From a virus: a stretch of 64,000 nt of DNA. The notes below the pieces were generated by a model. That model ran no database searches. It saw only the letters and a list, made by a program, of their open reading frames with translations, and was not told the origin of the DNA. Location of the stretch: positions 1-64,000 of the IMG/VR virus record IMGVR_UViG_3300025087_000002, one strand, 5' to 3'. A program made the position numbers and the translations under genes. This document shows, piece after piece, positions 26,167-53,847 of the stretch; the stretch's first letter is position 1, and every line of letters begins with the position of its first letter.

Positions 26167-26183
26167 ACATTAATACTTGATAA
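26167..26183 (-). promoter_or_regulatory. Late promoter-like element 1
   Basis: Minus strand TTATCAAGTATTAATGT, identical to copies at 40740 and 51015. It lies 22 bp before the start of the 26144 gene. Confidence 0.65.
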
Positions 26184-26188
26184 ACCCT

Positions 26189-26590
26189 TTAATTACTGTA
26201 TATTATGATAGTTAATGTGTAAGTTGTGTTTGCTAGTAAACCTGTAATATTACTAACTTTTATTATTTTATTTTCTTCGGTATATGTTATAAAGGGATGT
26301 GAAGTTATAGCACCACCTAGAACTCTTATGATTTGTGTTCCTGTTGACTTTAAAGCTAAATTATGTTTAAAAGAGATTGAAAATACAGGATTACCACTTG
26401 CATCAACTTTGATGTTATTAATAGTTTTAATTTCTTGATTAAGATTTTCTGATATTGAAAGATTCTTATTTAAAGCATTGTAAACACTTTCAGCAAAGGA
26501 ATTATAACAAATACCAATCTTTTCAACTAGTTCCTTTTCATCGTCTTTAAAATCTTCAACGTTTAATCTTTTTGGGCTATCTATTTTCAT
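26189..26590 (-). CDS. Small structural protein candidate (133 aa)
   Basis: The 133-residue protein has an N-terminal helical part and a C-terminal beta-rich part (SFKHNLALKSTGTQIIRVLG). It overlaps the large nozzle gene by one base, so it is probably a tail protein. No family is recognised. Confidence 0.5.
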   Translation of the reverse strand: MKIDSPKRLNVEDFKDDEKELVEKIGICYNSFAESVYNALNKNLSISENLNQEIKTINNIKVDASGNPVFSISFKHNLALKSTGTQIIRVLGGAITSHPFITYTEENKIIKVSNITGLLANTTYTLTIIIYSN

Positions 26591-29484
26591 TATTTATATG
26601 CTCTCGGTGTTGTTTGTTCGTTGTAAGTTACTGAATATCCAATAATACCAAACTTCTCTCTGGCTACGTTATGTTCAAATTTCAAATATATATAACGACA
26701 TCTTTGTTTATTTCTAGGCACATACGTTCTAAATGGTCTTTCTCCACCATCACCACCATAAACATACTCACCATATGTTTGAGTACCATAATCACCATTA
26801 CCTTCTGCTTCAAATTCAATACCTTCTAAATGAGCACTTATATCACTTCTAAAAGACATAGTACCATATGTAAAGTTATATTGATCAAACATTAACGTTG
26901 ATTCTCTAAATTGTTTCATTAATGATGAATCACCTAAAGTTTCCGCGGAATATTGCGTTTCAGTACTTATACCATTGAATATAATACAATCACCAACTAG
27001 AATTGGTATTTCGTTATAAAGAATAACTTTACCTAAAGAAAATATTACATCTTTAATAACGGCTTCGTAAGTTATAGCTGTTGTATATTTTTCATAGTTA
27101 GTAAAGGCAATACCAGTTGATGTATTTAGTTCGTCTACAAGAAGATTAAACCCATCTCTAAGGTCTTCTATATCGTTACTACCAGAATAACTAGTATAAG
27201 TTTGTAGAACGTCATCTAGGGCTATTTTTGACACTAATGCTTGTAGTCTACCACCTAGATCATTACCTGTTGATAATTTCAATTCGGTATAGTAATCTGA
27301 ATCATCTAACATCCAATCTTTATCTAACTGATTTAATAATCGATTAAATCTAACAATAGTAATATATTGTATTTGATATAATACATCATGAATGTTAACA
27401 TTAAGTATGTTACTTGGAAAAATTATATCACTTCTAATTGTTGATGGTGATAATGTTTTTTCATATTCTCTATCAGCATAGTCTGTTCTTTCAAAGTTTT
27501 TTCTTTCAATTTCTATCTGGTTAATATCTGATGGACCTAAATAAAGTCTATCATTACCACTATTTACAATACCACAAGTTTTACTCATTATCCAACGAGT
27601 CCAAGTCCTTGTAAATACGTTAAAACGATAACATTGTGTTGCTGTTGTATCTGTTGGTAATGTTGGTAAAAACAATAGATAAGCTCTATCACTTTCATAA
27701 GTTATACCAAAAGACTTCTTAGAGAAATTAGGAAAATTACTAGATGTTGGTTTTAGTATTAAGTCTTCTATCTTTCTAGAAATAATACTAACAGCACCAT
27801 CAGTAACGGTAACAACACCTTGACTTGTTAACATATATATTTGATTATTCAATACTTGAGCTGTGTCAGCAGCTATTAATGGACTAGATGAGTCTGTTAA
27901 TGTAACAACGAAAGTATCTGGAGTAGTTCCAGTTAATCTATATATACCATCAGTCTTAAGAATAAATAAAGATTCTCTTAAAGACATAACTCTTAGAATT
28001 GGTTTATCTTTAGATCCAATAGCTATGTAATTTAATATTGGAACAGATTCAGGTTGTTCTGCTTTTGAATAATAAATCCTATTAGGATTAACTTCATTAT
28101 CAGACTTAACTGATGAAGTAAATGGTGTTGATGGAACTACCAAGGGTATTTTAGGACTAATATCATTACCAGAAGCTTCTATATTTGTTCCTAAATAAAA
28201 TGGTATGTTAGCCATAACTCTTTTTTCTAACATCAATTGACCTGGAAGATCATTTGGTCCAGAAAGATAGAAAGCATATACTCTAGATGATTGATTACGA
28301 TTAATTACTTTAATCAAAGAATTAACCGTATCGTCTATATTTTGTGAAGGTGTACCAGCTTTAGCTAAAGCAAACTTTTTATTTGGTATATCCTCAACTG
28401 TTGAAGCTTCATAAGTTTCATAACCACTTATATCACCAATATAAAGTTTAGTTGGTCCACCCACATCACCTTCATCTTTAAAATCATCAACAGCTAAAAC
28501 ATCAAAAAATAAACGATGTAACGTTGATGTATTTGCATAAAAGACATAACTTTGATATTTAGTTACATCTTTAGCTAATGGTGGTCTATCATTTGAAGAA
28601 TTTATTCCTTCTCCTGATATTGGATTTGTATATAAAGTAGTTCCAGAAGCTCTAAAATCTTCAGAAACTAAATCAGTAGCAGTTACATAACCATTACTAA
28701 AATCTGTTGAAGTTGGATAATCTTCAAACACTAAATTCATTTCATCTTCTGGAACATTTAAAATAGCACCAACCATGTTATCTTTTTGTACATCTCTATA
28801 GACTTGGTATCCATAGTTGTTTTCAGAAGTTATTGTGTACGCATCAATTATTTCGGTTGGTATTGTAAATGTTAAAGTTGTTGCTTTTGAAGCACCTGAA
28901 GTATTTCTTATTATTCCTATCTGTCCCGGAGATCCTATTTTTAAATTACCATTAACATCTTTTCTAAACCAAACAACTCTATAAGCTGTCATCTTATTGT
29001 TTTCTAACCAATCTGTAGAGGCGTTTAACTCTATTTGTATATCTAACGCTTTAGGAACACCAGCACTAACTATATAACCTGGATCTGTTGTTAATTCTGT
29101 AGCTTCCAATGCTGATATTACTTTGATTCCTTCATTTGTTGTAAAATATAAATTACCATTAGATTCAACACTCTTTATTCTAAGTCCTGATTCTAATTCT
29201 GTATATGTTCCTGAGAATTCAGAAAAAGCACCACTACCATCATCAAACAATAATTTAGTAGCGTAGTGTATTAGTATTCTACCTTTATATTGTAATAGTT
29301 GTTTAGAGACATCCGATGCTGTTCCAAAAGAATCACCATATATTTTCATACCTCTACGAGGTTCAATAACACCATCTTTATCTATTACTATATTATTAGC
29401 TTGAACTAATGCACCATCTTCCAGTGTTAATTCATTTTTAAATGAATGTAATCCCAATGCTGCATTTACTGTTTTTTGTGGCAT
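26590..29484 (-). CDS. Tail nozzle/stabilisation protein (T7 gp12-type)
   Basis: The 964-residue protein begins with NAALGLHSFKNELTLEDGAL and VQANNIVIDKDGVIEPRRGM, the usual opening of podovirus tail tubular/nozzle proteins. Beta-propeller-like repeats follow (GRILIHYATKLLF, NGNLYFTTNEGI and GIYRLTGTTPDTFVV). It would form the lower tail tube below the adaptor, and the adaptor gene lies immediately upstream. The size and position fit. Identification is from the N-terminal pattern and context. Confidence 0.72.
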   Translation of the reverse strand: MPQKTVNAALGLHSFKNELTLEDGALVQANNIVIDKDGVIEPRRGMKIYGDSFGTASDVSKQLLQYKGRILIHYATKLLFDDGSGAFSEFSGTYTELESGLRIKSVESNGNLYFTTNEGIKVISALEATELTTDPGYIVSAGVPKALDIQIELNASTDWLENNKMTAYRVVWFRKDVNGNLKIGSPGQIGIIRNTSGASKATTLTFTIPTEIIDAYTITSENNYGYQVYRDVQKDNMVGAILNVPEDEMNLVFEDYPTSTDFSNGYVTATDLVSEDFRASGTTLYTNPISGEGINSSNDRPPLAKDVTKYQSYVFYANTSTLHRLFFDVLAVDDFKDEGDVGGPTKLYIGDISGYETYEASTVEDIPNKKFALAKAGTPSQNIDDTVNSLIKVINRNQSSRVYAFYLSGPNDLPGQLMLEKRVMANIPFYLGTNIEASGNDISPKIPLVVPSTPFTSSVKSDNEVNPNRIYYSKAEQPESVPILNYIAIGSKDKPILRVMSLRESLFILKTDGIYRLTGTTPDTFVVTLTDSSSPLIAADTAQVLNNQIYMLTSQGVVTVTDGAVSIISRKIEDLILKPTSSNFPNFSKKSFGITYESDRAYLLFLPTLPTDTTATQCYRFNVFTRTWTRWIMSKTCGIVNSGNDRLYLGPSDINQIEIERKNFERTDYADREYEKTLSPSTIRSDIIFPSNILNVNIHDVLYQIQYITIVRFNRLLNQLDKDWMLDDSDYYTELKLSTGNDLGGRLQALVSKIALDDVLQTYTSYSGSNDIEDLRDGFNLLVDELNTSTGIAFTNYEKYTTAITYEAVIKDVIFSLGKVILYNEIPILVGDCIIFNGISTETQYSAETLGDSSLMKQFRESTLMFDQYNFTYGTMSFRSDISAHLEGIEFEAEGNGDYGTQTYGEYVYGGDGGERPFRTYVPRNKQRCRYIYLKFEHNVAREKFGIIGYSVTYNEQTTPRAYK

Positions 29485-29493
29485 TTTTCATCC

Positions 29494-30483
29494 TTATATT
29501 GAACGTTTACCTTTTCTACCGATACCACTACTTCTTAAAATATTATGACGAGATTTAGCTTTGATTGGAGATCCTGATATTCTGTTGTCTAACATTAATC
29601 CGTTATTGTTCTCCATTTTTTCTAAACGTCTAGTAGCAACGGCTAAATTTTGAACATCACCATTAGCTTCTAAAACTAATGTTGCTGTCATTTGTGCTAA
29701 TAATGGGTGTAGTTCACTTGGACAATTAATTAGATCTGTTTCACCAGCTAATGATAATCTATCACCAATAGATAATCTTGGTGGTATGTTCTCGGGATCT
29801 AGTTGTATATATTTACCTGAAGTATTTATCGATATAATAGGAACATCAAAACTTATAATTTTATGAGGTGATTTTGTTCTGACGAAATCATATAAAGCTG
29901 TTGCTGAAAAATTAGTAGGTAAAGCTGTTTTATTTTCATCAGAATTAATTAAAGTTATAATACCGTTAGTTCTATCAATGTTTTGAATTATCGCAACTCT
30001 TTCATTTAATACTAAAGCGTTTGGTTTTATTAAATAGAAGAATAGTAAACCACCAATACCGTCTATATTATCTTCACTAGTGTGTATTACTAGATTCTCA
30101 CCTTCTATATAGTATCTAAAAACTCCATTATTACCATTATAATCAACTAATTCATCTGTTGATACTTGTATCATATCCTGTTTAGTTTCTTCATCATTTA
30201 TGTCACTAATATAAAACACTTCTTGAAATTTAGCTCCTATTGAACGATATGGTATTTCATATCGTTTTACACCAGCTTCTAATGGTATTATTTCTTGAAT
30301 ACGAAAATAGTTCTCTTGTTTTGATAAAATTAAAGGAATTAATGAGCTTGACATCTCATCGTTTGCTAATTTTAATATGTCATTATCATCTAGTAAATTT
30401 TGACTGTCTGGTATATTAGTACGTTTTTTTATACTATCTAATAATTCAATAGATGAATAATAGGATTTGTTTGCTGTAGACAT
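29494..30483 (-). CDS. Head-to-tail adaptor (tail tubular protein A type)
   Basis: The 329-residue protein has an N-terminal helical bundle (SSIELLDSIKKRTNIPDSQN, then DDNDILKLANDEM). Beta regions follow, including AGVKRYEIPYRSIGAKFQEV. This pattern is common in podovirus adaptors that join portal to nozzle. The neighbouring nozzle gene supports the call. Confidence 0.68.
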   Translation of the reverse strand: MSTANKSYYSSIELLDSIKKRTNIPDSQNLLDDNDILKLANDEMSSSLIPLILSKQENYFRIQEIIPLEAGVKRYEIPYRSIGAKFQEVFYISDINDEETKQDMIQVSTDELVDYNGNNGVFRYYIEGENLVIHTSEDNIDGIGGLLFFYLIKPNALVLNERVAIIQNIDRTNGIITLINSDENKTALPTNFSATALYDFVRTKSPHKIISFDVPIISINTSGKYIQLDPENIPPRLSIGDRLSLAGETDLINCPSELHPLLAQMTATLVLEANGDVQNLAVATRRLEKMENNNGLMLDNRISGSPIKAKSRHNILRSSGIGRKGKRSI

Positions 30484-30497
30484 AGTACATCCTTATA

Positions 30498-30845
30498 TTA
30501 TTCTTTTAATTGAGAAGCTAATTCCATTAGTTTTTTAAGTTTAGCTAATTTATTATCTTTTCCTTCTTCCATTCCATCACATTCAGCTTCATCTTCTTTA
30601 CATTCTTCCATTTCTTCTTCACTTCCAACAATTTCTTTAGCTTTCTCTAGTCCTTCTTCTAATCCATCTTTATCTGGAGCGGCTACTGTTACTTTTTTCA
30701 TACCTTTTAATTCTTCACCACCAGCTTCATTCATGATAGAATCAATATCATCAAGCATTGACTCTTTAATCTTCTTAGATTTATCATCAACAAATTTACC
30801 TTCTTTTGCTTTCTTTCTTAGTAGATCTTTAAATTTTTCAATCAT
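30498..30845 (-). CDS. Acidic hypothetical protein (115 aa)
   Basis: Very acidic protein with repeated Glu runs (GSEEEMEECKEDEAECDGME). It overlaps the holin-like gene by eight bases. Function unknown; it could be a minor virion or scaffold-like factor. Confidence 0.5.
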   Translation of the reverse strand: MIEKFKDLLRKKAKEGKFVDDKSKKIKESMLDDIDSIMNEAGGEELKGMKKVTVAAPDKDGLEEGLEKAKEIVGSEEEMEECKEDEAECDGMEEGKDNKLAKLKKLMELASQLKE

Positions 30846-31074: not shown

Positions 31075-31075
31075 A

Positions 31076-31471: not shown

Positions 31472-31491
31472 TTTATATCCTTGTAAAAAGA

Positions 31492-33158: not shown

Positions 33159-33677
33159 TTATGCTTTTTTTACCAGTAAACGAGCAATAGCTCCTGCTCC
33201 TGGATCTGCTGACCATGTTAATGTAATTGCATCTACTGCCTGATTAAAAGATACTAAAGCTGTACTATTAGCTCCTGCTGTTTTTTGTGAACAAGCAAGA
33301 ATAACATCACCAGCAGCTAAACCAACAGCAGCAACACTTTCTACAGCACCACCACCAGCAGAAGCTGCGGTATCAATTACAACTAAATCTGCTATATCTA
33401 ATTTTAAAGCTAATGCATCAAATACTACATTTTGTGATGGAGCTTTAGTTGTAACTCCGTCAACTAATGCATCTTCTATATCAGAACTATTAGCTTTCAA
33501 TGCTAATGCATCAAATACTGCATTTTGTGAAGGTGCTTTATCAACAACAGCATTAACAATAGCATCTTCTATAACATCAGCAGCAGCATCTTCAGCAATA
33601 TCAGTAGCTTCAACTAAAACAGCATCGATAGCATCTTGTACGTTTTTTTCATCAATTCCTTTGTAATCTACACTCAT
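33159..33677 (-). CDS. Repeat-containing structural protein (172 aa)
   Basis: Contains two copies of KAPSQNAVFDALALK (about residues 49 and 80; second with V for A). The region resembles fibre proteins with trimeric coiled-coil repeats. The C-terminal 50 residues form a small beta domain (VILACSQKTAGANSTALVSF). Probably a fibre or its adaptor. Confidence 0.6.
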   Translation of the reverse strand: MSVDYKGIDEKNVQDAIDAVLVEATDIAEDAAADVIEDAIVNAVVDKAPSQNAVFDALALKANSSDIEDALVDGVTTKAPSQNVVFDALALKLDIADLVVIDTAASAGGGAVESVAAVGLAAGDVILACSQKTAGANSTALVSFNQAVDAITLTWSADPGAGAIARLLVKKA

Positions 33678-33866: not shown

Positions 33867-33935
33867 GAAATTGCTCCTATTTAATGTTTATCACCGTTTA
33901 TTATTCTTCCTAAATAACAGCTACGATAAATACTC

Positions 33936-33952
33936 ACATTAAAACTTGATAA
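33936..33952 (-). promoter_or_regulatory. Late promoter-like element 2
   Basis: Minus strand TTATCAAGTTTTAATGT, one change from the commonest form. It lies in the gap between the 34936-33959 gene and the 33866 gene. Confidence 0.6.
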
Positions 33953-40046: not shown

Positions 40047-40715
40047 TTATACTGAAATTATTGATTTGGCAAAAAACTTTAATAAAGAAGCGTGAGATCC
40101 AACTTCTCCACTTAAAACTTCTGGATTATAGGTTATTGTACCAGAAGAATTTATATCAAATTCAACCTTAGCATCACCTAATCTTCTTTGGGCTAATACC
40201 CAACCTTGAAGTGAGTAGTTTCCAGAAAGGACACCACTCTCTACTAATTCAATATCAAACTTACCACCAACATCAGAACCATTAAATGTTGAAAGAATAC
40301 TAAAAGATGTTGCATTTATTCTAGTAATAACAAATGTACTGTCTATGTTTGAAGTATCTGTTATTGTTACAGTATCACCGTTGTTTAGATTGTGATTATA
40401 TGAAAGTACCACAATTGTGGTAACTCCATTACCAGTATAGGAAGTTATTTCTTTAGTAATCCGTCTTGATATGTTATATGGAGCTTCAAATGATCTAACT
40501 GTTGAAGAATTGAAATGGAATGTTATTATTTCTTTAGCTCCAGAAGTATTTAGTATTGTTTCTGAAGTTTCAATAATGTCATCTGGACCTTGGAGTGTAT
40601 TTAATGCATCAATAATTGCATTTATTATATCAGCTTGTTCCTCACCCCAAGGAGCATTCTCACCTTGAAGTGGTAGGTTATAAGTCTTATTATTAATATA
40701 TACGATTTTAGACAT
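40047..40715 (-). CDS. Fibre-like structural protein (222 aa)
   Basis: The 222-residue protein has an N-terminal segment with WGEEQADIINAIIDALNTL, a short central beta insert (ITDTSNIDSTFVITRINATS) and a C-terminal domain (AKVEFDINSSGTITYNPEVL, then LKFFAKSI). That last domain matches the fibre proteins at 31076 and 38421. It is the first gene after late promoter-like element 3. Confidence 0.58.
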   Translation of the reverse strand: MSKIVYINNKTYNLPLQGENAPWGEEQADIINAIIDALNTLQGPDDIIETSETILNTSGAKEIITFHFNSSTVRSFEAPYNISRRITKEITSYTGNGVTTIVVLSYNHNLNNGDTVTITDTSNIDSTFVITRINATSFSILSTFNGSDVGGKFDIELVESGVLSGNYSLQGWVLAQRRLGDAKVEFDINSSGTITYNPEVLSGEVGSHASLLKFFAKSIISV

Positions 40716-40739
40716 TTGTTTTCCTTGATGTTATTATAT

Positions 40740-40756
40740 ACATTAATACTTGATAA
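40740..40756 (-). promoter_or_regulatory. Late promoter-like element 3
   Basis: Minus strand TTATCAAGTATTAATGT, 24 bp before the 40715 start and just after the capsid gene terminator. Confidence 0.68.
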
Positions 40757-40782: not shown

Positions 40783-40815
40783 AAAAAAAAGGGAGAGCAG
40801 AACGCCCCCCCCCCC
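40783..40815 (-). terminator. Terminator after major capsid gene
   Basis: On the minus strand the end of a G run pairs with CTCCC (40795-40791) around CGTTCTGCT, followed by eight T. A few pairs are G-C plus one G-T. Confidence 0.6.
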
Positions 40816-40822
40816 CCCCCCC
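40805..40822. repeat. Poly-C homopolymer (18 bp)
   Basis: Eighteen consecutive C in an AT-rich genome, located between the major capsid stop codon and its terminator. The length may vary by slippage, or be a sequencing/assembly artefact. Confidence 0.8.
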
Positions 40823-40849
40823 TAAAGGTAGGATAACTGTTTGTTATAA

Positions 40850-42985
40850 TTAGTTAACGATACCAGTGAATACGATATTGCGTCCTAAAGCATTACAGAA
40901 AATTGCTAAGTCACAATAAGTACGATATTCAATACCGTTTTGATTTTCAAGAACAATTAACATTTCTTCATTTTTTCCTGGAAGATTGAAAGTAATATCA
41001 GAAGATCCAACTCTTTCAAAAGATTCAAGGTCAAGTCCGAAAGCTATTCCTTCTTTAACATAAGTACAGCTAATGATTTCAATCAAACCATTTTGGCTAT
41101 GAAATACGATAGTTTGTGAACCATTCTCATATTTCTTGACATCATAAGACTCATCAAATAGTCTTTTTGCTGTTTGTTCATTTAACAAATCAGACCATGT
41201 TTTAGGATTAACGAAAAGAGAAATCTTTCCTTCAAGTCCTTTAGCTACTGCATCAGCAATACCATCAGAAATTTTTTCGAATGATAAAGCTCCACCTACT
41301 GGATAAACGTTACCTGTCCATAAGCTGTAATCAGTAGAAACACCAAAAATGTTACCAGTAGTAGTTGTTAACATTTTATAGATACCCATAAATTCGTTAC
41401 CCTTAGCACCATGCTCATAAATAACTAGTTCATCACCAGCTAATTTAGAAGCTTTCAAAGTAGCTAAGTTATCACCTACAGCAGAAGCCATATCAACATA
41501 AAGTCTTTTGTTTCTGATATCAACTTTAGTAATTTTGATAATAGTAGTGTTCATTGCTGAATCAGTTAGATTATAAATATCTAACTTCATTTTCTCACCA
41601 CCAACCCAAATTCCAGGTGCCCATTCAGCTACTGTAATATCAAAATAAGCAGAAGCATCATCAACAACACTTATAGTAGCCAATCCAGATTGACCATAGA
41701 AACATTGGTATTCATGCTTCTTATAAGTTGAATTTAAAAGGTTACGAACAACATGTTTTGTTGCTTTACCGTAAGCAGCAGCATCATTAATGGAACGTGA
41801 AATAGCTGCGAATGATAATTGGGCTTTCAATATCATTTCACAACCTTTTACTGTTGCTTCTTTAGTAGCTCCTGAAATTGCATCTTTTAAAGTTACAATT
41901 TCTCCAGAATCACCGTTGTAAGAAACTCCGTGCTCTAACATATTGTTATTACTAGCTTTTGATGCTAGTAAGTTTGAGTAATCAAACTCTCAGTTTTATC
42001 TATTTTATAACTGAGATCAGAAACAACTTGAATTTTATAAAGCATATCAGGATGAATATAATCTTTTATTAAATTAATAAATCTTTCTTTATCTTCTTTT
42101 TTTCCAATTCTAATATAAGGATAAAAATTATGTTCAAGATATACTTTACTATGAATATTAAATTTTTCTAATAATAAATTAGAAAGTTTAATAACATCTT
42201 CTTTTGGAAATCCACCTAAAGAAAATTTAAAAGCTTTTAGTTTTCCTTTATGACTTTCTTTTGAACCATCGTCCATAAAAAGTATAGCTAAAGAAATTTC
42301 ATTAAAATGTTTTAGAACATAATCAGTTATTCTTTTTTTACCATCAACAATCATTCTATAATATAAAGAAGTAAATTTATGATGTACAGTTGTCCAAAAT
42401 CTATAAAAATTTTGTCTTTTTCCCGAAGGTGATGTCATAGATTTAGCTAAACACATTTTACTTCCAACACCATATTCTGTTGATATCAAATCTAATTTCC
42501 ATTTACCATAATCTTTTTGTTTCTCACAATGACCAAAAAGTATATGTTTATTTTTTTTTCCAGCAAAAGAAGAATCTCCTAACAATGTCCCTATTAAAAA
42601 CGCTTTTTTATTTTTCTTTAATTCCAACATTCGAACTCCCTATTGGGTTTCTTTTATTTTTTCAAGTTGACTTTCGCATCTTCTTTCGAAGTCCTTTCGT
42701 TAAGTCGTTCAGGCTGGTTTTACCCTTGCCCCTTGTTACCTTTATTATATTATAGAAAGGCTTCCAAGTCAATTAGAAAGGATTTTACTTGGGCTTAGAT
42801 TGCACTATCTATTGTTAACCCAAATTAATCGTATTCTTGTATTCCAATCCCATTCTTTTATTAGGTGATACGAAAGGTATCATCTTAGAAATCTTAACAC
42901 CTTCTGGTATTAAATCAGTTAATTCGCCATAAATGGATTTATGAAAACCATTTAGAGCTGCCATATCATTATGATTATAAGACAT
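40850..42985 (-). CDS. Major capsid protein, interrupted by an intron
   Basis: Exon 1 (42985-42824, AAGGAG upstream) encodes 54 residues, MSYNHNDMAALNGFHKSIYG through GLEYKNTIN. In unspliced RNA it reads on only to LG and a stop. Exon 2 (41938-40850) encodes 362 residues from LEHGVSYNGDSGEIVTLKDA to the C-terminus. Joining the exons gives a 416-residue capsid protein with the EHGV-x-Y block seen in podovirus-type capsids. Highly expressed in the late phase, it has its own late promoter-like element and terminator. The exact splice sites are inferred. Confidence 0.75.
41939..42823 (-). mobile_element. Group I-type intron with LAGLIDADG ORF in capsid gene
   Basis: The 885-nt insert splits the major capsid gene. 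At its 5' end the exon TTAAT can pair with GTTAA in the intron (P1-like, with the U-G pair at the splice site). Hairpins include a CTTC/GAAG stem with a GNRA loop at 42680-42691. At the 3' end an 8-bp stem (41949-41971) and a 7-bp stem (41971-41988) precede the terminal G. It carries a homing endonuclease. Core pairings P3-P8 were not fully traced. Confidence 0.65.
41965..42630 (-). CDS. LAGLIDADG homing endonuclease
   Basis: The 221-residue protein has two LAGLIDADG-type helices: FLIGTLLGDSSFA (about residues 11-23) and LAILFMDDGSKES (about 114-126), with acidic catalytic residues D and DD. The rest is a typical single-chain two-domain enzyme with C-terminal KIDKTESLITQTY. It lies inside the capsid intron and would cut intron-less alleles to spread it. 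Confidence 0.88.
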   Translation of the reverse strand: MLELKKNKKAFLIGTLLGDSSFAGKKNKHILFGHCEKQKDYGKWKLDLISTEYGVGSKMCLAKSMTSPSGKRQNFYRFWTTVHHKFTSLYYRMIVDGKKRITDYVLKHFNEISLAILFMDDGSKESHKGKLKAFKFSLGGFPKEDVIKLSNLLLEKFNIHSKVYLEHNFYPYIRIGKKEDKERFINLIKDYIHPDMLYKIQVVSDLSYKIDKTESLITQTY

Positions 42986-43141
42986 ATAGAAACTCCTTAA
43001 TTTATTTAAAAAATATCATTTATAGACTACCTATAAATGAAAAACCTACTTTGTTTGTTAATTACTCTTTTTCTATTTCTGGTATTTCATAATCCATCGT
43101 TGGGTATATGAAAATCATAATAAATACTAAAATAATAACCC

Positions 43142-43158
43142 ACATAAGTACTTGATAA
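43142..43158 (-). promoter_or_regulatory. Late promoter-like element 4
   Basis: Minus strand TTATCAAGTACTTATGT followed by GGG. It lies between the scaffold terminator and the major capsid start, 156 bp before the latter. Confidence 0.62.
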
Positions 43159-43182: not shown

Positions 43183-43205
43183 GGTTACCTATTAGCTAGG
43201 TAACC
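43183..43205 (-). terminator. Terminator after scaffold gene
   Basis: Nine perfect base pairs, GGTTACCTA/TAGGTAACC, with a five-base loop, followed by CTTTGTT on the minus strand. It separates the scaffold and capsid units. Confidence 0.72.
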
Positions 43206-44275: not shown

Positions 44276-46327
44276 CTAACTATTTGATATATTTGTCATT
44301 CCTTCATTTGCTGTTAATGGTGCATTTTCAAAACCTTCAGGCATTCTTGGCTTTTGTAATGTTGTATCTTGTTGATTCAATGCCTGTTCTACTGGTGGTA
44401 GATTTTGGGGTGCTTCCATTTGTGATGGTGATGTTGTCTGTCCTGGATTTGGTTGGGTTATTGGTTGAACTATCGGTTGAATACCCATAGCTTGTAACAA
44501 CATAGGATCTGTATTTTTCCAAGTTTGAATATGTTCATTGATATGAGTTAATACTAGATTAACTAACTCAGCATCAGATTTTAATATAGTATCATTCAAT
44601 ACACCTCTATGACATTGAATATGTTTGGGGTGATTTTCTATAGCTAATACAATAGGTTTTGTTCCCATTAAGAAACCTTCGTTTTCACCACGTATTAAAA
44701 ATTCCTCTTTTACAATATCTTCTGTACCCATTTCTAATTTACCAGTATGTATAATTGTTATGTATTGTTCTGGGGTAAGTGTGCCATATTGAAGTAAATT
44801 ATCAGCCATTTGTGCTCTACCAGCAAGTGTATTAGTTAAAGGATTTGCAACATCAACAATAACTCTATTTATAGAACGTAGGTCTTCTCCTTTAAATTCT
44901 TTCATATACGACCTTCCAGATTTACCAACAATAGCCGCAATTCTTGGAGAGTTAGCAAAATCTTGAAGTATTTCAATTAAACAAATACCGACATTTTCAA
45001 TTAAGTAAATATATTCTTGTTGTAAACCCGACATAAATTGTATAGCATTAGTTTGTACCATAGCCAATGCTGATCCAGAACGTAAAGATGCTTCTGGATT
45101 TCCTCTAGCTGTTGAATTTATAGCCGATAGAGTTTCCATATCTTTAACATAACGATCCATTAAATTATACAATTCAGGAGCTGTTTTTGTTAAGTTTAAA
45201 GCTTCAGGTTTAGCACCACCTTGAGGGTTATAATCCATGATACTTAAACCATTAGCTAATTGTGTGACATCAATATTTGATCCACTAGGATTTAATATTG
45301 TTTGTACACCAAAAGCAACGTTGTTACTTAATGCTGCTGAATTTAAACTATTATGTGCGTCCTGTATTGATAGTAAATCAAATAAAGGACTATATCCTAA
45401 TGGTGTTCCTAGTATTCTTCCTGGATAAATTGGGAATACAGGTATCCTCCTATATGGTAGTTCACCCTCATGGAGTATTGCTTCTTCAGAAACAAATAAC
45501 ATATATTTACCTTCAGGCATTGCCTCACTACGCCTGTGATAAAACTCTAACACAGATATATCATCAGTTTCATCTCCACTATATAAACCAACACGTACTC
45601 TTTTCGAATGATCTTTCGATTCTATAGCCATTATTTCTTTTTCTAAATGTGGATACTTAGCGATCAAGTCATATCTATTTTTAAATGATCTAGTTATAAT
45701 CCAATCGAAATCTCTACCTTCTTTGGAAAGATCCATAACAACATCTAAAGCTGATAGAACATTAAATTCAACATCACCTTCATACTGTGGATCTGGTATT
45801 TCTACTTTCTCTCCATTTTCTTGTAGTTCTTTGTATTCTTGTATTTCTTTTTTATTAGTTACTTCACCTAACATACCATTCCAAGACATTTTCATCCAAC
45901 CCAAAGATGTAGATAATGCATATTCACATGCCATCTTTAAGTATTCTTCTAGTTTCTTTTCTCTCATATAATAGTCAAGTAGACCATTTCCTAGATATGT
46001 CTGTGTAACCGATTTAAAGTCTGTATTTACTGCTCTACATTCCATTGCCGGTCTAGTTGATGTTGTCATAGTCAACATATGTCTAGCTATGTTTCTGAGA
46101 TGATTAACTACTATCTGAGCTAGTTCTCCATCTTCACCAGCAAACGTAATTTGATGAGCTTCACCTATTGAATTATAGTATCCACCATAATATGCAGCAT
46201 ATAAATCTCTAAGTTTATCCATGAATCCACAAGAGTTAAGTGATCTATCCCATGATTCAATTTTAGATAACAAAGCTGAAGCACATTCTTTTGATTCTCT
46301 TGCTGCAAAATATTTATTATTTTCCAT
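44276..46327 (-). CDS. Portal protein
   Basis: The 683-residue protein shows podovirus portal features: AYYGGYYNSIGEAHQITFAG, the NHLRNIARHMLTMTTSTRPA wing helix, GRILGTPLGYSPLFDLLSIQ and a Gln/Pro-rich C-terminus. It would form the dodecameric ring at the packaging vertex and bind the adaptor and terminase. The 107-base gap before the scaffold contains no evident gene. Confidence 0.85.
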   Translation of the reverse strand: MENNKYFAARESKECASALLSKIESWDRSLNSCGFMDKLRDLYAAYYGGYYNSIGEAHQITFAGEDGELAQIVVNHLRNIARHMLTMTTSTRPAMECRAVNTDFKSVTQTYLGNGLLDYYMREKKLEEYLKMACEYALSTSLGWMKMSWNGMLGEVTNKKEIQEYKELQENGEKVEIPDPQYEGDVEFNVLSALDVVMDLSKEGRDFDWIITRSFKNRYDLIAKYPHLEKEIMAIESKDHSKRVRVGLYSGDETDDISVLEFYHRRSEAMPEGKYMLFVSEEAILHEGELPYRRIPVFPIYPGRILGTPLGYSPLFDLLSIQDAHNSLNSAALSNNVAFGVQTILNPSGSNIDVTQLANGLSIMDYNPQGGAKPEALNLTKTAPELYNLMDRYVKDMETLSAINSTARGNPEASLRSGSALAMVQTNAIQFMSGLQQEYIYLIENVGICLIEILQDFANSPRIAAIVGKSGRSYMKEFKGEDLRSINRVIVDVANPLTNTLAGRAQMADNLLQYGTLTPEQYITIIHTGKLEMGTEDIVKEEFLIRGENEGFLMGTKPIVLAIENHPKHIQCHRGVLNDTILKSDAELVNLVLTHINEHIQTWKNTDPMLLQAMGIQPIVQPITQPNPGQTTSPSQMEAPQNLPPVEQALNQQDTTLQKPRMPEGFENAPLTANEGMTNISNS

Positions 46328-47021: not shown

Positions 47022-47506
47022 ACTGGAACCCTCGAAACCCATAATGTTAAATCCATATCACTACAGTTAGTACCGTCATCTAAGTATTGAGCATATACAA
47101 CACTACCAGCATCAAAAGTATAATCTAGACCATTAACAAATCCATATCCATCGTTTGGGCTATCAACATCTAATGTATAAAAAATAGTTCCAGTTTTAGA
47201 AACTGATCTAAATTGTACTCTAAAAGATACATTTATAGTTTGATTAGACCAACTTATTTCGTTTATTTTGGTTTTAACAGCAAATACACAAAATGGTGTG
47301 TTTGGTAGTAATTCTGTTGGACCTAACCAATTATTATTACCAACAATACCGTTATATACACCTCTTATTCCTGCTCTAGGAAATCCTTCACCATATTGTT
47401 TAGATTCTTCTATTGCAGACTGAGTATCTGTGGAATTGAATCCATTTGTTGAATTATCAAATGGTGTAGATTTTGCTACTTGAGTTGGGTGTGTACGATG
47501 TGTCAT
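47018..47506 (-). CDS. Structural protein candidate (162 aa)
   Basis: The N-terminus contains TPFDNSTNGFNSTDTQSAIE, a virion-attachment motif common in small fibre or head proteins. The C-terminus is a beta sandwich. It abuts both neighbours by overlaps (stop-start TAATG). No family is recognised. Confidence 0.55.
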   Translation of the reverse strand: MTHRTHPTQVAKSTPFDNSTNGFNSTDTQSAIEESKQYGEGFPRAGIRGVYNGIVGNNNWLGPTELLPNTPFCVFAVKTKINEISWSNQTINVSFRVQFRSVSKTGTIFYTLDVDSPNDGYGFVNGLDYTFDAGSVVYAQYLDDGTNCSDMDLTLWVSRVPV

Positions 47507-48552: not shown

Positions 48553-48570
48553 ATAAACTCCTTTTATATG

Positions 48571-48616: not shown

Positions 48617-48622
48617 ATTGAA

Positions 48623-49534
48623 TTATGATAATTCCATGTGTCTAATTTCATGACCTAATGTTGCTGCTATCCATTGAACATCTACAGCAGCTCCTGCTCT
48701 TAGTTCCATAATGTTCGCTGGATCTAGTGGAAATCCGTTTGCTTGTGTAACTGAAGCACCACCAACAAATGCTCTTTTATTTGTATTATTAAAAATATAT
48801 AAATACTTTCTATTAGCTAATGCTGATGCAACAACAGATTCTCTAGTATCTGCAACATCTAGAGTATTAACATCATTTGCAATAGCTGTGTTAGCTAAAG
48901 CTGCATCATTAACAACTATTGAAGAATTGATGATATTAACATCTAATCCAGTATCAGCACCAACAACAGTAGAAGTGATAGATGTTCCTGCTCCGTCTTT
49001 AGTCCAAGAAGATACACTATCAGTAGCAGCAGCTAAGTCTCTAATATCCAAATCTGAAGCATCTACTGTAATTGAATTACCACCATCACCAATAACCCAA
49101 GGATCTGTTCCTTGATAAGCTGTAACACTATCAGATGTATATACTAAATCTCTAATGTCTAAATCTGAAGCAGTTACTGCTATTGAAGAATTAGAAATAT
49201 GAACATCTAATGCAATATCACTGTTTTCAGAAGTAGAAGTAAAATAATTAGTACCATCACCAAGTCTTACAGAATCTTCTGTATGATCTAAATCAACATC
49301 AATTTGAATATCACTAGAAGCAATGTTAACATCTAATGCATTACCGGTAGAAGTAATACCATTACCGGCACTATCAAATAAAGCCGATGCTGTATTCAAC
49401 CATTCTTGAGAATTAATTGTTTGATGGTCAATTAACGTACCATCAGATGATCTTACATATGCACCAACGGAATCACTAGCTAATATAGTGTCAGCGTCGG
49501 TTACATCGAAAATTAGCTTTGTCTTCCAACCCAT
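48623..49534 (-). CDS. Repeat-containing virion protein (303 aa)
   Basis: Contains two copies of a SDLDIRDL motif (ASDLDIRDLVYTSDSV and ASDLDIRDLAAATDSV), and other short beta repeats (ALDVNIASSDIQIDVD). The C-terminus is GHEIRHMELS. This is typical of a head fibre or decoration protein. Family is unknown. Confidence 0.55.
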   Translation of the reverse strand: MGWKTKLIFDVTDADTILASDSVGAYVRSSDGTLIDHQTINSQEWLNTASALFDSAGNGITSTGNALDVNIASSDIQIDVDLDHTEDSVRLGDGTNYFTSTSENSDIALDVHISNSSIAVTASDLDIRDLVYTSDSVTAYQGTDPWVIGDGGNSITVDASDLDIRDLAAATDSVSSWTKDGAGTSITSTVVGADTGLDVNIINSSIVVNDAALANTAIANDVNTLDVADTRESVVASALANRKYLYIFNNTNKRAFVGGASVTQANGFPLDPANIMELRAGAAVDVQWIAATLGHEIRHMELS

Positions 49535-49565
49535 AAAACCTCCTAAAAATTGTTAAAATAATTAT

Positions 49566-49964
49566 CTAGCTCCAACTAGATAATTCTATAGTATCATTTG
49601 CCTTGTTAGATCTAAAGTATACAACTATCGGAACAACTAATTTTAAATTATCTTCAGTCTTTAAATTTCCAGGACTTAATGTTGAAAATGTTGTTCCACT
49701 TTCACCAATCTGAAAAGACCATTGTATCTCTCCAAATTTCCTTGATTTCCATTCAAATCTTTTAGTACCCAAAGGTATTGTAAAACTATATTCTGTATTA
49801 GCTAGAGGTGCCGCTATATTTTGAGTTAAACCAGAATCAACTTCAATAGCTAAACTTATTTCACCTTGAATACGTACAGCAGTATTACCATCACCATCGG
49901 TGGTAAACTTTTCAGACTCCTTTCTGTGAAGCCAGTTATTTAAATGATTGAAAACTCCCTTCAC
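49566..49964 (-). CDS. Small structural protein (132 aa)
   Basis: Beta-rich protein with IPLGTKRFEWKSRKFGEIQW in the middle; starts MKGVFNHLNNWLHRKESEKF. It lies between two larger virion genes. Probably a head or tail decoration protein; family unknown. Confidence 0.5.
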   Translation of the reverse strand: MKGVFNHLNNWLHRKESEKFTTDGDGNTAVRIQGEISLAIEVDSGLTQNIAAPLANTEYSFTIPLGTKRFEWKSRKFGEIQWSFQIGESGTTFSTLSPGNLKTEDNLKLVVPIVVYFRSNKANDTIELSSWS

Positions 49965-49976
49965 AACAAATCCTTC

Positions 49977-50975
49977 CTAGATTATTTTTTCAATAGAAGA
50001 TATTAATTTAGTAACTACATCATAATGTATTCTAACTTTCGCTACTAACCCTCCGATTTCTCCTATTTGTACAGATTTAATCATTCCATGTTCAGTATTA
50101 ACATCTGTAGTTATTGTTGCTACACCATATGTATTATTCTTTATTGTTACTTCATTCGTTCTATATGTAGCAATAAAATAATCTAATATATCTATAGCAT
50201 TATTTGTTTTTTCAGCAATAGTGTTCTCATTATCACTTGATAAAATATTAACAATAATTGGTATACTACCTAGAGGTGATGGATCAACACCTAATCCATC
50301 TAAATTATACCAAACGTGAAATTTAAACTCATCATTTGTTGTATATAAAAAAAAGTATTTATTATTAAGAGTGTTTAAACCTTTTTGTGATGATATACCT
50401 AAACCACTTGTACCATTTGTTGCATCTGGTTTATCACCAACACTATTACTAGCTATAGTTGTCATACACCCAATATTAAGTGATGTAAATTCACTATCTA
50501 AATTCATAACTTCTTTTAATCTAGAAGCTAATAAATTAGAATTATCTGATGAATATATAACAACTTCTAAATCTCTTAAAGCTCCAGTAACTGGATGTAT
50601 TGATGTACCATTAAGATTAAACCATACACCAACAGATCCAACATCATCATATATTATGAAATATTTACCATCTAAATTTATACCAGTTTTACCATTAAAA
50701 GTAACTGTAGTAATTTCGCTTCTACCATCTGGTGTTCCTCTACATGAAATTAAAGTTTCATGAGCAATACCTTCACCATAAAAATTAATATATTCAACTT
50801 CAAACGTTCCATCACTCATATCTTTATATTCATAACTAACTTTAACGTAACGTTTAGGAACAAAGTCATTGGCTAATATAACATCAAACGCTCTTTGTGT
50901 GTCGTTAAATGCAGTTTGAAGTGTTTGTCCTGGATCTAATACTGACAAACTATTTGGACTATTTTTAGAAAACAT
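49977..50975 (-). CDS. Virion protein candidate (332 aa)
   Basis: The protein is beta-rich with two similar halves: INLDGKYFIIYDDVGSVGVW at about 104 and TLNNKYFFLYTTNDEFKFHV at about 200, both followed by a Y/F-NLDG/NLNG segment. It looks internally duplicated. It is the first gene after late promoter-like element 5 and follows the terminase. Confidence 0.55.
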   Translation of the reverse strand: MFSKNSPNSLSVLDPGQTLQTAFNDTQRAFDVILANDFVPKRYVKVSYEYKDMSDGTFEVEYINFYGEGIAHETLISCRGTPDGRSEITTVTFNGKTGINLDGKYFIIYDDVGSVGVWFNLNGTSIHPVTGALRDLEVVIYSSDNSNLLASRLKEVMNLDSEFTSLNIGCMTTIASNSVGDKPDATNGTSGLGISSQKGLNTLNNKYFFLYTTNDEFKFHVWYNLDGLGVDPSPLGSIPIIVNILSSDNENTIAEKTNNAIDILDYFIATYRTNEVTIKNNTYGVATITTDVNTEHGMIKSVQIGEIGGLVAKVRIHYDVVTKLISSIEKII

Positions 50976-51014
50976 ATATTATATTCCAATAACATTAGTT
51001 GTTTAATTTAAACT

Positions 51015-51031
51015 ACATTAATACTTGATAA
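51015..51031 (-). promoter_or_regulatory. Late promoter-like element 5
   Basis: Minus strand TTATCAAGTATTAATGT immediately after the terminase stop, 39 bp before the 50975 start. Confidence 0.66.
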
Positions 51032-53008
51032 TCATCTACGACGCTTAACTGTGAAAATGTCACGAATACTCTGTTGAACGTCCGTAAGTTGTTGTTTTTG
51101 TTTAGGAGAGTAGAATCCACCTTTAGGTAAATCGTAATCTTTAGGGTATGGATTTTTATGATAGTTGATGTTACGTATCAAATAAATCAATGCATCTAAA
51201 CAGTCAAAATGTGAACCATCAGCAGCTTTCTCATATTTAGTTCTTGCTTTATTCCAAGTAGCATTCATTAAATGAAATATTAGGTTTATACATCTAGGAT
51301 TTATCTTTAGTTTTTTACCAGAAACTTTCATACGTAAAGCGTTTATTTGTGCGTTTTTATCATCTTTTCTAGTTGGTATAAACGATAAGTTGTGTAAGTT
51401 ATTAAAGTCTACGATAATTTGCCAACTAGTATCACATATCCTTGACTCTGGTAATTTGTCACCCCAAAGCATCTTTTCCTTTAATTTAATAGCATCAGCC
51501 ATATCAATAGTTGTATATTCTTTACCATTGAATACTAATTCATCTTCAACAACAATTTCATCATTTCTAAAATCATAATACGCAAACAAAAAAGCTGTCC
51601 AATCTAGTATACCAAAGTCACCAGAAGTATAACATGTATAGTGTGCTGGTCGTTTCCATGTTTGTATTATGTCTTTCATTTTTTCATCAGTAGCTTCTGG
51701 TATAACTAATGAATTTGTGTCAGCTAATAATTTACATAAGTATTCTCTTTTAAAATCTATAGAATCTTTACCACCAACAGCATTAGCCATTTCTTCTATT
51801 TCATATCCTTTAAATCTAGGACAATCATATATAGTTCTTCTGGTATATGCTTTTTTATAGTCAGCTTCTTTAATATATTTATTAAATGTATGTGCTGCTG
51901 AAGATGGTGGAGTTGAAATCATGATTGTTAATCTACGCTTAGACGTATTCATAGTTGGAAATAATACAGATTTATAATAGTAGTCAAATTCAGATGAATC
52001 CATAAATCCACACTCATCCATGAATACCCTATCAAATCTTTGACCTCTAGCATTTTCAATATTACCAGAGTCTGTACCAATACAATGAATTTCAGAACCA
52101 TTATCAAATACGAATACGTTTTCTTGAGTATTAAATTTAGGTCTTAATTCTTTAGGACAATCTATACATATTTCATTGAAACGAGATTTAATTAATTTTC
52201 TAGCTTGATTCTGTCTAGGTAAAACGTAAGCTATTTTAAAGTTGGGATTACGAATACATTCTTCGATTGCTAATAAAGAAATTAGGAAAGAGTTATGAGT
52301 TACCAATCCATCACCAGTAAGATATAAATGTGTATCATTATCAACAGTAATATCCCAACATTGTTCCATTCTTCTATTTTCTTTTCTAACACTAACAGAA
52401 TCTGTCACACCATTTACAACAGTTACTATTTTATCATACTCATTAAAATCTTTTAGTGGTTTCTCCAAAAGATTACCTTCACCATTTTTAACTAACCAGT
52501 AATGTTCATCAGTACAACCAGCTAAAACTTTACCATTACCAACTAAATCAAATACTTCTTCAACACCACAATCTATTTTATCAACAACTTTAGTTGGACT
52601 TACACTACCGTCTTTATTATATCCATAAATAATATCACCAATATTAATATCTTTGATTAACTTTGGTCCAGTTTCTGTGATGACGTAAGTACTTGAATTT
52701 ATTGACTTTCCAGTTTGTCTTGAGAGGCACCATACTAACAAATTATTCTTAGTAGTATGGTAATTTTCATATAAACTTTTCTGATTACTATCCAACTTCC
52801 AATGAAGTACTCCTCTTTTCCACAATTTAACAGCAGCTTCTCTTTGTAATCTCTGTTTTTTAGCATCAGGTTTAGTTGTACCTTTAGGTCTACCTCTAGG
52901 TACAATCTTGACTAAATCTTCTTCAGTATTTATTATTTTACTATCAACAACAGGTTCTTTATCCTCAACAACTTCTTCTATGATAGTTTTATCTCCACTA
53001 TTCATCAT
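51032..53008 (-). CDS. terL: Terminase large subunit with in-frame mini-intein
   Basis: Counting from the start at 53014, residues up to 103 lead into the Walker A motif LSRQTGK/S, interrupted by a 138-residue intein (52705-52292). After excision it reads SRQTGKSFLISLLAIEE. Walker B is RVFMDECGFM and the nuclease domain contains SGDFGILDWTAFL and DCLDALIYL. Mature protein is about 520 residues, normal for TerL. The start is ATG 53008 or 53005 (GTG 53014 is also in frame). It packages DNA into proheads. The small-subunit candidate lies just upstream. Confidence 0.9.
   Translation of the reverse strand: MMNSGDKTIIEEVVEDKEPVVDSKIINTEEDLVKIVPRGRPKGTTKPDAKKQRLQREAAVKLWKRGVLHWKLDSNQKSLYENYHTTKNNLLVWCLSRQTGKSINSSTYVITETGPKLIKDINIGDIIYGYNKDGSVSPTKVVDKIDCGVEEVFDLVGNGKVLAGCTDEHYWLVKNGEGNLLEKPLKDFNEYDKIVTVVNGVTDSVSVRKENRRMEQCWDITVDNDTHLYLTGDGLVTHNSFLISLLAIEECIRNPNFKIAYVLPRQNQARKLIKSRFNEICIDCPKELRPKFNTQENVFVFDNGSEIHCIGTDSGNIENARGQRFDRVFMDECGFMDSSEFDYYYKSVLFPTMNTSKRRLTIMISTPPSSAAHTFNKYIKEADYKKAYTRRTIYDCPRFKGYEIEEMANAVGGKDSIDFKREYLCKLLADTNSLVIPEATDEKMKDIIQTWKRPAHYTCYTSGDFGILDWTAFLFAYYDFRNDEIVVEDELVFNGKEYTTIDMADAIKLKEKMLWGDKLPESRICDTSWQIIVDFNNLHNLSFIPTRKDDKNAQINALRMKVSGKKLKINPRCINLIFHLMNATWNKARTKYEKAADGSHFDCLDALIYLIRNINYHKNPYPKDYDLPKGGFYSPKQKQQLTDVQQSIRDIFTVKRRR
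52292..52705 (-). mobile_element. Mini-intein in terminase, Ser1 type
   Basis: The 138-residue element begins SINSSTYVITETGPKLIKDI (block A, with Ser in place of Cys at position 1). Block B has LAGCTDEHYWLV with the T-x-x-H pattern. Block F/G ends HLYLTGDGLVTHN and the next residue is Ser. No endonuclease domain is present. It sits inside the ATP-binding loop, so packaging needs splicing. Confidence 0.88.
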
Positions 53009-53432
53009 CTTCACCTGAAACTATGCGCAATAAATCAGCAGTAGCTTCTTGTTTATCTTCCTTGGATAGTTTAGGAAGCTTATCACCATTCTTTAAAGCT
53101 ACATATGCTTTTATAAGTACGTCAAATTTACGCAAATCAGCCCCTTCTAAGCGTTCTCCTTGCATGACTATACCATCATGCATCCTTTTGAATTCAACCT
53201 CAATAATCTCCATTTGGTGGCTTCTACGAGCCAGTATACCTTCTTCCTGCTTTGGTTGAATTGATGGAACACTACTATTTTTTAGTAACTCTTCTAAATG
53301 TTTGACTTTCTCTTCTAAGTCATCAATATAATTCTTTGCTTCAAAAAGCATATTACATGCTTTCTCAGCAAATTCCTTAGAATTCATTTCATTTTTCAAT
53401 TGCTCTAGATTTAGTATATTTAATGTATCCAT
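52998..53432 (-). CDS. Terminase small subunit candidate
   Basis: The 144-residue protein is mainly helical with a coiled coil (about 33-52) and an acidic C-terminus. It overlaps the terL start by about 11 bases. The size and position fit a small terminase subunit, but no clear helix-turn-helix could be placed. Confidence 0.55.
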   Translation of the reverse strand: MDTLNILNLEQLKNEMNSKEFAEKACNMLFEAKNYIDDLEEKVKHLEELLKNSSVPSIQPKQEEGILARRSHQMEIIEVEFKRMHDGIVMQGERLEGADLRKFDVLIKAYVALKNGDKLPKLSKEDKQEATADLLRIVSGEDDE

Positions 53433-53434
53433 AT

Positions 53435-53722
53435 CTATTTTCTCTTCGATTGTTGAAACTCTAGATTAACTCTAGCTAGTTTACTTTTAATATCGTTTAT
53501 CTCTTCTCTAGTACTTTCTTTAAAGTCTTCTTCAGTTTCTATCTTACGTTTATTATCCATCCAATAAATAAAACAATAAACACCACCTAACACTAAAAGA
53601 TTAGCTGCTGTTTGTAATGTTGGTTGAATCAATAGTAATTTAATAACAAAGAGTACATAGACACTTAAAAGATAGTGTTTGAAACTAGATAAAAATAACC
53701 ATATCCGTTTTAAATAATTCAT
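53435..53722 (-). CDS. Two-span membrane protein (95 aa), holin candidate
   Basis: Two membrane segments (HYLLSVYVLFVIKLLLIQ and TAANLLVLGGVYCFIYWM) are followed by a charged coiled C-terminus. It heads the terminase unit, with AAAAGGAG upstream. Many phages place a holin or membrane anchor here. Not distinguished from other small membrane proteins by sequence. Confidence 0.5.
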   Translation of the reverse strand: MNYLKRIWLFLSSFKHYLLSVYVLFVIKLLLIQPTLQTAANLLVLGGVYCFIYWMDNKRKIETEEDFKESTREEINDIKSKLARVNLEFQQSKRK

Positions 53723-53745
53723 AAAACTCCTTTTTTATGATATAA

Positions 53746-53831
53746 TAGGGTATCGGTAGTTTCGTTAACGGCTTGTATGTGTTAAACACTATGTCAATAT
53801 AGACCTTCCGACTTGACACTACGTAACCCTA
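53746..53831 (-). promoter_or_regulatory. Structured leader of the terminase unit
   Basis: Minus-strand RNA could fold with an outer TAGGGT/ACCCTA stem (53831-53826 and 53751-53746) enclosing TGTCAA/TTGACA (53818-53813 and 53797-53792) and a GTGTT-AACAC dyad. It starts exactly at late promoter-like element 6 and ends 24 bases before the gene. Confidence 0.4.
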
Positions 53832-53847
53832 CAATAACACTTGATAA
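53831..53847 (-). promoter_or_regulatory. Late promoter-like element 6
   Basis: Minus strand TTATCAAGTGTTATTGT followed by AGGG. It is the most divergent copy and lies 108 bp before the 53722 start. Confidence 0.55.

Follow-up and report, generated by a model that had tools for sequence, protein, structure and literature searches.

A conserved 19-bp element, probably the core late promoter, in the virion-gene gaps of a clade of ~80-kb uncultured phages

Introduction

T7-like promoters form a contiguous block, in which an AT-rich part precedes a purine start; they are near-identical within a phage and drift in specificity between phages. Single-subunit polymerases read one contiguous block ending near the start. 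T4 late promoters carry TATAAATA and involve gp55, gp33 and gp45. As reported, the late and middle promoters of phiEco32 consist of a single tAATGTAtA element read by the phage sigma factor gp36, and the late promoters of phage 7-11 have the form GTAAtg-16-aCTA and are read by gp47 (PMC8948821, PMC4331800). A genome of 77 kb is reported for SU10, a relative of phiEco32. In AR9, the late promoters of the non-virion polymerase are described as AACA-6N-TA/G (PMC5312081). Here, we analyze a repeated intergenic element in an uncultured phage. Our window, i.e., the whole stretch of DNA under analysis, covers positions 1–64,000 of an IMG/VR phage record of 85,256 bases (IMGVR_UViG_3300025087_000002). 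An initial annotation of the window had described six copies of a 17-bp element within the virion-gene cluster as the probable phage late promoter.

Comparison with relatives strongly supports the late-promoter proposal, as the same architecture recurs in the late-direction gaps of ten genomes and in held-out loci. The repeat itself is real; its length is better given as a 19-bp block than as 17 bp. Judged from sequence comparison, the element is probably the core late promoter of the window's phage and of a clade of ~80-kb uncultured phages, and would be read by a phage-specific factor. In the accessible portion of the open-licence PMC literature, we found no description of the element, and its motif strings gave matches only in three microalgae papers, for one 12-letter string.

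Results

Six copies in gaps of the virion-gene cluster

With up to three mismatches allowed, TTATCAAGTATTAATGT matches the window seven times, always on the minus strand, which none of 100 dinucleotide shuffles reached (mean 1.9, maximum 5). Six of these matches are the annotated copies (Table 1). As originally described, all six lie in gaps, in the direction of the virion genes and 22–156 nt before a start, in every case an ATG codon, and the base right after the 17-mer reads A, G, A, G, A, and A. The seventh match, with three changes, is probably a chance occurrence. The whole record holds the same seven minus-strand matches and two weak plus-strand ones with three mismatches (67241 and 67472, outside the window). 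In the scan of the full record with a matrix built on the six copies, as the initial annotation had proposed, they scored 23.6–26.9 and stood far above the next-best site, the seventh match; all others scored at most 12.2. The exact word TTATCAAGT occurs nine times in the record, each time on the minus strand, and a minus-strand half-copy, TTATCAAGTATCTGTAT, lies between listed open reading frames (ORFs) at 66462, outside the window.

Hairpin terminators had been noted beside two copies. Terminator-like hairpins indeed stand just upstream of copies 3 and 4; the one at copy 3 is mostly poly-G, and its role is less sure. The same sites recur in three further records (84,982, 85,057, and 85,259 bases), and one of these has every site displaced by ~11.3 kb at nearly equal total length, as would be expected of a whole genome that is permuted or circular. 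The near-identical records stem from samples 3300025009, 3300025117, and 3300025121. Copies 3 and 4 are 2394 to 2405 apart in the four near-identical records, a spread probably due to the poly-G tract (40790–40830) upstream of copy 3.

The same architecture in ten clade genomes

Relatives were gathered from viral contigs via the portal gene and, additionally, via the terminase. One group, referred to as the clade, has portals of 43–55% identity, terminases mostly of 34–44% identity, and many contigs of 58–89 kb. Smaller relatives have portals of 29–43% identity and contigs of at most 53 kb. A portal search of a phage collection (50,697 records) at an expectation value (E) of 1e-5 returned two distant matches only, and the window's portal found no phiEco32 record at this E. 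Among genome contigs, the portal search found no relative with the first alignment and two with the second, L330 and L331, on 73- and 88-kb contigs of metagenome-assembled genomes (MAGs) of Bacteroidota. The main comparison covers ten clade genomes of 76.7–89.3 kb, namely that of the window's phage (G000) and G001, G016, G017, G018, G026, G033, G034, G035, and G036. The exact 17-mer occurs in 61 stretches across all viral contigs. Those of the same phage species hold the copy in the gap; because the others lie mostly inside unrelated ORFs, a word search alone does not reveal relatives. We rejected it as proof of relatedness, the 17-mers outside the species reflecting chance or protein-coding constraint.

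In G001 (82 kb, portal 48%), 13 late gaps chosen by hand were searched de novo, and eight of them held TTAACAAATATATATGWA or close forms. When the late-direction gaps, those of the virion genes, were searched de novo under one rule, a single architecture recurred in the ten genomes, a 19-bp block with the consensus TTAWCAA[C/A/G]TATWWWTRGA. It is spelled TTATCAAGTATTAATGTAA in the window's phage, CATCAAGTATWNTATA in G026, TTAACAAATATATATGWA and close forms in G001 and G016, TTAACAACTTAATGTAGA in G017, TTAACAACTACTTATAGA in G018, TTAACAACTATATATAGA or similar in G033, G034, and G036, and TTAATAACTATATAGTAGA in G035. The de novo score clearly exceeded the best of three shuffles in eight genomes (95–149 vs. 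61–77: G000, 99/66; G001, 127/63; G016, 97/61; G017, 149/77; G018, 133/61; G026, 137/69; G033, 95/71; G036, 103/63) and moderately in G034 (101 vs. 83). The lists of sites, that of G034 most of all, include some unlike the element. The clade would carry the same kind of switch, mostly with one spelling per phage.

A single contiguous block with a drifting position 8

We aligned 80 sites from position −29 to +50. Columns above 0.25 bit occur only within positions 1–19, in the order TTAWCAA[C/A/G]T at 1–9, A/T at 10–14, T at 15 (0.81), and purine-rich 16–19; the box at positions 1–9 is near-invariant in the clade. Since the informative columns are confined to 1–19, there is no separate −35/−10 pair, and the 80 aligned sites reveal no second element that keeps a constant spacing to the block. 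The shape is the single contiguous block typical of T7-like promoters. The block does not show the TTGACA and TATAAT hexamers, 16–18 apart, that mark a host sigma70 promoter, and no columns resembling a −10 keep a constant spacing to it.

When any base was allowed at position 8, the late-direction gaps of the ten genomes gave 84 matches, of which 80 have the majority base of their own genome; the four exceptions are unlike the element beyond the box. This majority base is G in two genomes (G000 and G026), A in two (G001 and G016), and C in the other six. A portal tree of 105 rows, 51 of them labelled, requires at least eight changes of the position-8 base vs. 15–24 in 200 label shuffles; eight is a rough figure because the labels are noisy for loci with few sites.

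Placement and enrichment in late-direction gaps

In all ten genomes, the element stands upstream of a member of the family of ORF 40047–40715, the gene that follows the capsid gene. The next gene downstream of a copy belongs to family 30498 in six genomes, to the first gene of the terminase operon, the portal, or the scaffold-like gene in five each, and to the capsid in four, a count that excludes the window's copy before capsid exon 1, which was scored against the intron ORF. The distance from the element to the annotated start has a median of 29 nt (quartiles 18 and 89, n = 80), with single cases above 400 nt; a few of the 80 sites (e.g., 66470 of the window's record) are not closely followed by any gene. 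Some relatives also carry copies inside the early region (G018 at 47403 and 47486, G001 at 79420, and G016 at 70915). The two in G018 form a divergent pair beside a gene for a small Cys-rich protein, zinc-finger-like by eye.

As a control, the strict 9-mers of each of the ten genomes were compared with scrambled words of the same letters (60 each). Late-direction gaps hold 80 9-mers vs. 1.3 with scrambled words. Genes hold them at background, with 15 vs. 9.6 on the late strand and 4 vs. 8.2 on the other. Gaps of the other strand hold 10 vs. 1.1, several of them in the early region. Equal frequency in genes or on the other strand, which the initial annotation had named as speaking against its proposal, was looked for and did not occur. 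One fixed degenerate word was then applied to held-out loci, 53 of the clade and 38 of the smaller relatives. The clade loci contain 103 sense-intergenic matches vs. 12.8 expected and 14 anti-intergenic ones vs. 12.2 expected; at least one sense-intergenic match is present in 41 of the 53 and at least two in 31. The loci of the smaller relatives show three such matches vs. 6.6 expected. The element is a repeat in the gaps before virion operons, in gene direction and rare elsewhere, as expected of a late promoter.

In the ten genomes, sigma70-like sites, defined by at least 10 of 12 matches to the TTGACA/TATAAT type, number 78 in early-direction gaps vs. 27.9 in shuffles (largest 37). With this enrichment, the early genes look host-read. 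The Bacteroidota-type TTTG-N17-23-TAnnTTTG is absent from the gaps of the ten genomes vs. ~3.8 occurrences in shuffles, a count that says little because so few are expected by chance.

Other features of the phage and its relatives

The terminase gene contains an insert at 52292–52705 on the minus strand, coding for 138 residues (104–241) at the Walker A GK/S and ending in HN before S. It is absent from two aligned relatives, and Pfam Intein_splicing matches only at an E of 0.05; it is probably a mini-intein. The ribonucleotide reductase of G016 (L298:5741–8626) carries an intein with a LAGLIDADG domain. The capsid gene, which has no Pfam or PHROG hit, owes its name to its length and to its position between the scaffold-like gene and the tail genes. 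Its two exons share one family with the continuous 403-residue capsid protein of G001, and between them (~41942–42820) lies an ORF for a LAGLIDADG_2 endonuclease (41965–42630, E of 2e-28). The ends of the interruption would suit a group I intron; Rfam finds none. A sigma70-like site also lies between the exons, at 42772–42744.

Two consecutive plus-strand ORFs at 4998–7516 (590 and 237 residues) both belong to the clade's DNA polymerase B family, so that this gene appears to be split. Between the early and late blocks, the gap at 14570–14800 shows by eye several TGTTCAC/GTGAACA repeats, possibly an operator or origin iterons. The phage also encodes an RtcB-type RNA ligase (61106–62284, plus strand, Pfam E of 1.6e-113) without a relative among the nine other clustered genomes. 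A protein with ten DUF4116 stretches is encoded at 76738–77673 of the record (plus strand; L010:6739–7674), and other early ORFs of the phage join its family by iterated profile search.

Table 1. Positions of the element copies and of further features in the window
Feature	Position	Strand	Remarks
Putative late-promoter element, copy 1, TTATCAAGTATTAATGTAA	26165..26183	-	exact TTATCAAGTATTAATGT at 26167; 22 nt before ORF 24921-26144
Element copy 2	33934..33952	-	17-mer at 33936, one change vs. TTATCAAGTATTAATGT; 69 nt before 57-residue ORF, ahead of 33159-33677
Element copy 3	40738..40756	-	exact TTATCAAGTATTAATGT at 40740; 24 nt before ORF 40047-40715 (gene after capsid gene)
Element copy 4	43140..43158	-	17-mer at 43142, two changes; 156 nt before major capsid exon 1 (42985)
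Element copy 5	51013..51031	-	exact TTATCAAGTATTAATGT at 51015; directly after terminase stop codon; 39 nt before ORF 49977-50975
Element copy 6	53829..53847	-	17-mer at 53831, two changes; 108 nt before ORF 53435-53722, first gene of terminase operon
Weak match, three changes	50227..50243	-	inside ORF 49977-50975; matrix score 16.0
Terminator-like hairpin	43183..43205	-	just upstream of copy 4
Poly-G/pyrimidine hairpin, terminator-like	40783..40819	-	upstream of copy 3; tract length doubtful
Portal protein	44276..46327	-	query used to find the clade
Terminase large subunit	51032..53014	-	probable mini-intein at 52292-52705
Major capsid gene, interrupted	40850..42985	-	exon 1 in ORF 42815-42985, exon 2 in ORF 40850-41941

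Discussion

We propose that the 9-bp box TTAWCAA[C/A/G]T, the AT-rich positions 10–14, and T-R-G/A-A at 15–18 together form a promoter, with the RNA starting near the last of these. A phage-specific initiation factor would read the block and turn on the virion-gene operons late in infection, co-evolving with its sites, and the early genes would be read from sigma70-like promoters by the host RNA polymerase. Near-uniformity of the box inside each phage, together with its concerted drift from one phage to another, makes a phage-encoded factor most likely. The best fit is a small protein, sigma-like or an activator, that redirects the host polymerase, since the shared early genes leave no unnamed one of polymerase size. 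The factor belongs to no family recognized in the scans made. It is conceivable, and to our mind slightly doubtful, that the 19-bp TTAWCAANT element constitutes a promoter class peculiar to a widespread clade of tailed phages, with a phage-encoded initiation factor or polymerase of a new family that has changed its specificity some eight times or more, in step with nearly all of its sites.

Several observations weigh against this proposal. The first concern uniformity, which the free-position count (80 of 84) strengthens within the ten genomes and which two loci weaken outside them: L330 mixes the base at position 8, with five good copies carrying A and an equally good one G, and L202 has both A and C. 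The de novo score of G035 scarcely exceeds its shuffles (58 vs. 55). No sense-intergenic match was present in 12 of the 53 held-out clade loci, and L331, a clade member by its portal, has no convincing copy. The copies in other-strand gaps of relatives are above chance, so that the element is not strictly late-strand. Late-direction gaps also hold 29 sigma70-like sites vs. a shuffle mean of 12.4 (largest 18), and host promoters may therefore serve some late genes.

The search for a reading factor counts against the proposal as well. The initial annotation had suggested a phage polymerase or sigma-like gene outside the window, and none was found in the whole record. Sigma region 2 (PF04542) was found at an E of 1 in none of 22 clade records, with the control positive in 11 of 14 genomes; gp36 was not the query, and a strongly divergent sigma factor could escape. 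Multisubunit RNA polymerase (PF00623) was likewise found at an E of 1 in none of 22, with the control positive in 14 of 14. A search for T7-type polymerase (PF00940) gave no match in 24 records, where the control itself was empty. Pfam and/or PHROG scans of ~83 of the 137 ORFs of the phage named no RNA polymerase or sigma factor; one Pfam/PHROG scan gave the best 25 of 40 families, the others having an E above 0.019, and many PHROGs are nameless.

Outside the virion set, the families common to the ten genomes comprise a primase-helicase, a PD-(D/E)XK nuclease, and a small protein encoded at 15616–16266; none of the common early genes is of polymerase size without a named function. The small protein (A6; DYDYLxKL..E..L..F..EY), present in all 24 clade records searched, was the first best candidate for the late factor, being small and common to the ten genomes. 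The candidacy is unsupported, undercut by homologues where no element is seen: the family also occurs in two of ten smaller relatives (G011, 5.5e-21; CP017838 weakly, 3e-4) and in L117, and no box was found in the gaps of L117 and L128, the latter lying in G011, where one box-like word is genic. The family has no Pfam match of weight and its profile no PDB sequence below an E of 8. Its structure models are poor to middling (mean predicted local distance difference test, pLDDT, 61 and 78), and the better one matched no PDB fold below an E of 3. In the window, the gene stands in a minus-strand block (14789–17696) together with a Clp-like protease and an SLT transglycosylase gene, headed by a sigma70-like TTGACA-17-TAAAAT at 17745. 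The block runs in the late direction here, unlike the homologues of relatives, which run in the early direction. Other small shared families were set aside as an M15 peptidase (58760–59164), a dUTPase (56402–56842), the PD-(D/E)XK nuclease, and an exonuclease; so was 17798–18109, which is holin-like by eye only and has no Pfam hit.

We consider it unlikely that a host alternative sigma factor reads the element, with the late genes transcribed by the host polymerase without any phage factor. Such a reading would account for the failure to find a phage sigma factor or polymerase and for the few phages that mix bases at position 8, and the clade may share related hosts, given two portal relatives in Bacteroidota MAG contigs, which is weak evidence because such contigs may be misbinned. 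The box, however, is near-uniform within a phage yet switches between phages, unlike host sites under one matrix, and the enrichment of TTGACA/TATAAT-like sites in early gaps suggests hosts using ordinary sigma70. Equally improbable in our view is a site for a phage activator or single-strand-binding protein beside a weak host −10, in the manner of activator-dependent late promoters, rather than the core promoter itself. The lack of a detected polymerase gene and the sigma70-like sites in late gaps would suit it, but in the 80 aligned sites no column resembling a −10 keeps a constant spacing to the block, within 31 bp on its downstream side or 30 bp on its upstream side.

A very divergent single-subunit phage polymerase that escaped recognition, e.g., within a virion protein, is slightly less probable still. 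The single contiguous block ending near the presumed start speaks for it, and it would have to reside in the virion cluster, because no shared early gene of that size is left. Against it, profiles of the virion-cluster families 18110 and 21943 gave nothing polymerase-like among PDB sequences, their sequences look like those of internal virion proteins, and Pfam names no polymerase in the large virion proteins. An RNA-level signal transcribed from upstream promoters (a processing site, antitermination box, or translation enhancer) is the least probable, since its closeness to starts and the two copies after terminator-like hairpins are offset by the variable distance to the start, by the little room for another promoter where copy 5 abuts a stop codon and two copies follow hairpins, and by the AT-rich stretch and purines that end the block, as at a start site.

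The proposed late promoter gives a transcription map for a large phage group without a close relative in the 50,697-record collection and sharpens the question of what recognizes these copies, given that the searches showed no known polymerase or sigma gene. Natural variation among A, C, and G at position 8 offers material for finding the factor and its specificity residue. If the proposal is true, promoter and factor would also make a new orthogonal pair of practical use in the laboratory.

As for known systems, the element resembles T4 late promoters as a single AT-rich element reading late genes; it has another sequence and a specific 9-bp box, and the Pfam/PHROG scans made name no factor of the T4 kind. 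Its likeness to the AR9 promoters is that the box contains AACA in most relatives and that a T-purine follows at a short distance. However, the conserved T (column 15) follows AACA at 8 bases instead of 6, T reaches only 0.50 in column 13, the window's own box has ATCA instead of AACA, and no multisubunit polymerase gene was found in the clade records searched. The phage also has a dUTPase (a family in six of ten genomes by clustering), which does not suggest uracil DNA. An AR9/phiKZ non-virion polymerase promoter was dropped in view of the column profile. In phage 7-11, late promoters served by a phage sigma factor stand at places matching those of phiEco32 and differ in sequence between related phages, which is similar; they are bipartite, unlike the single block of the window's clade.

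Like the phiEco32 promoters, the element would be a single-element phage-specific late promoter in virion-cluster gaps opposite an early cluster, in a genome of comparable size and with few, highly uniform copies. The window's copy at 40740 reads TAATGTATA, the sole copy with that word; the clade-conserved TTAWCAANT, however, stands 5′ of it, AATGT (columns 10–18) is not kept in relatives, and no sigma region 2 gene was found in the clade. We therefore dropped a phiEco32-type sigma promoter (tAATGTAtA), which does not fit the clade's column profile. T7-like promoters differ in sequence and length and come with a polymerase gene of a kind not detected in the 24 records searched, where the control was empty. 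They resemble the element in forming a contiguous block that passes from an AT-rich part to purines, is near-identical within a phage, and drifts between phages.

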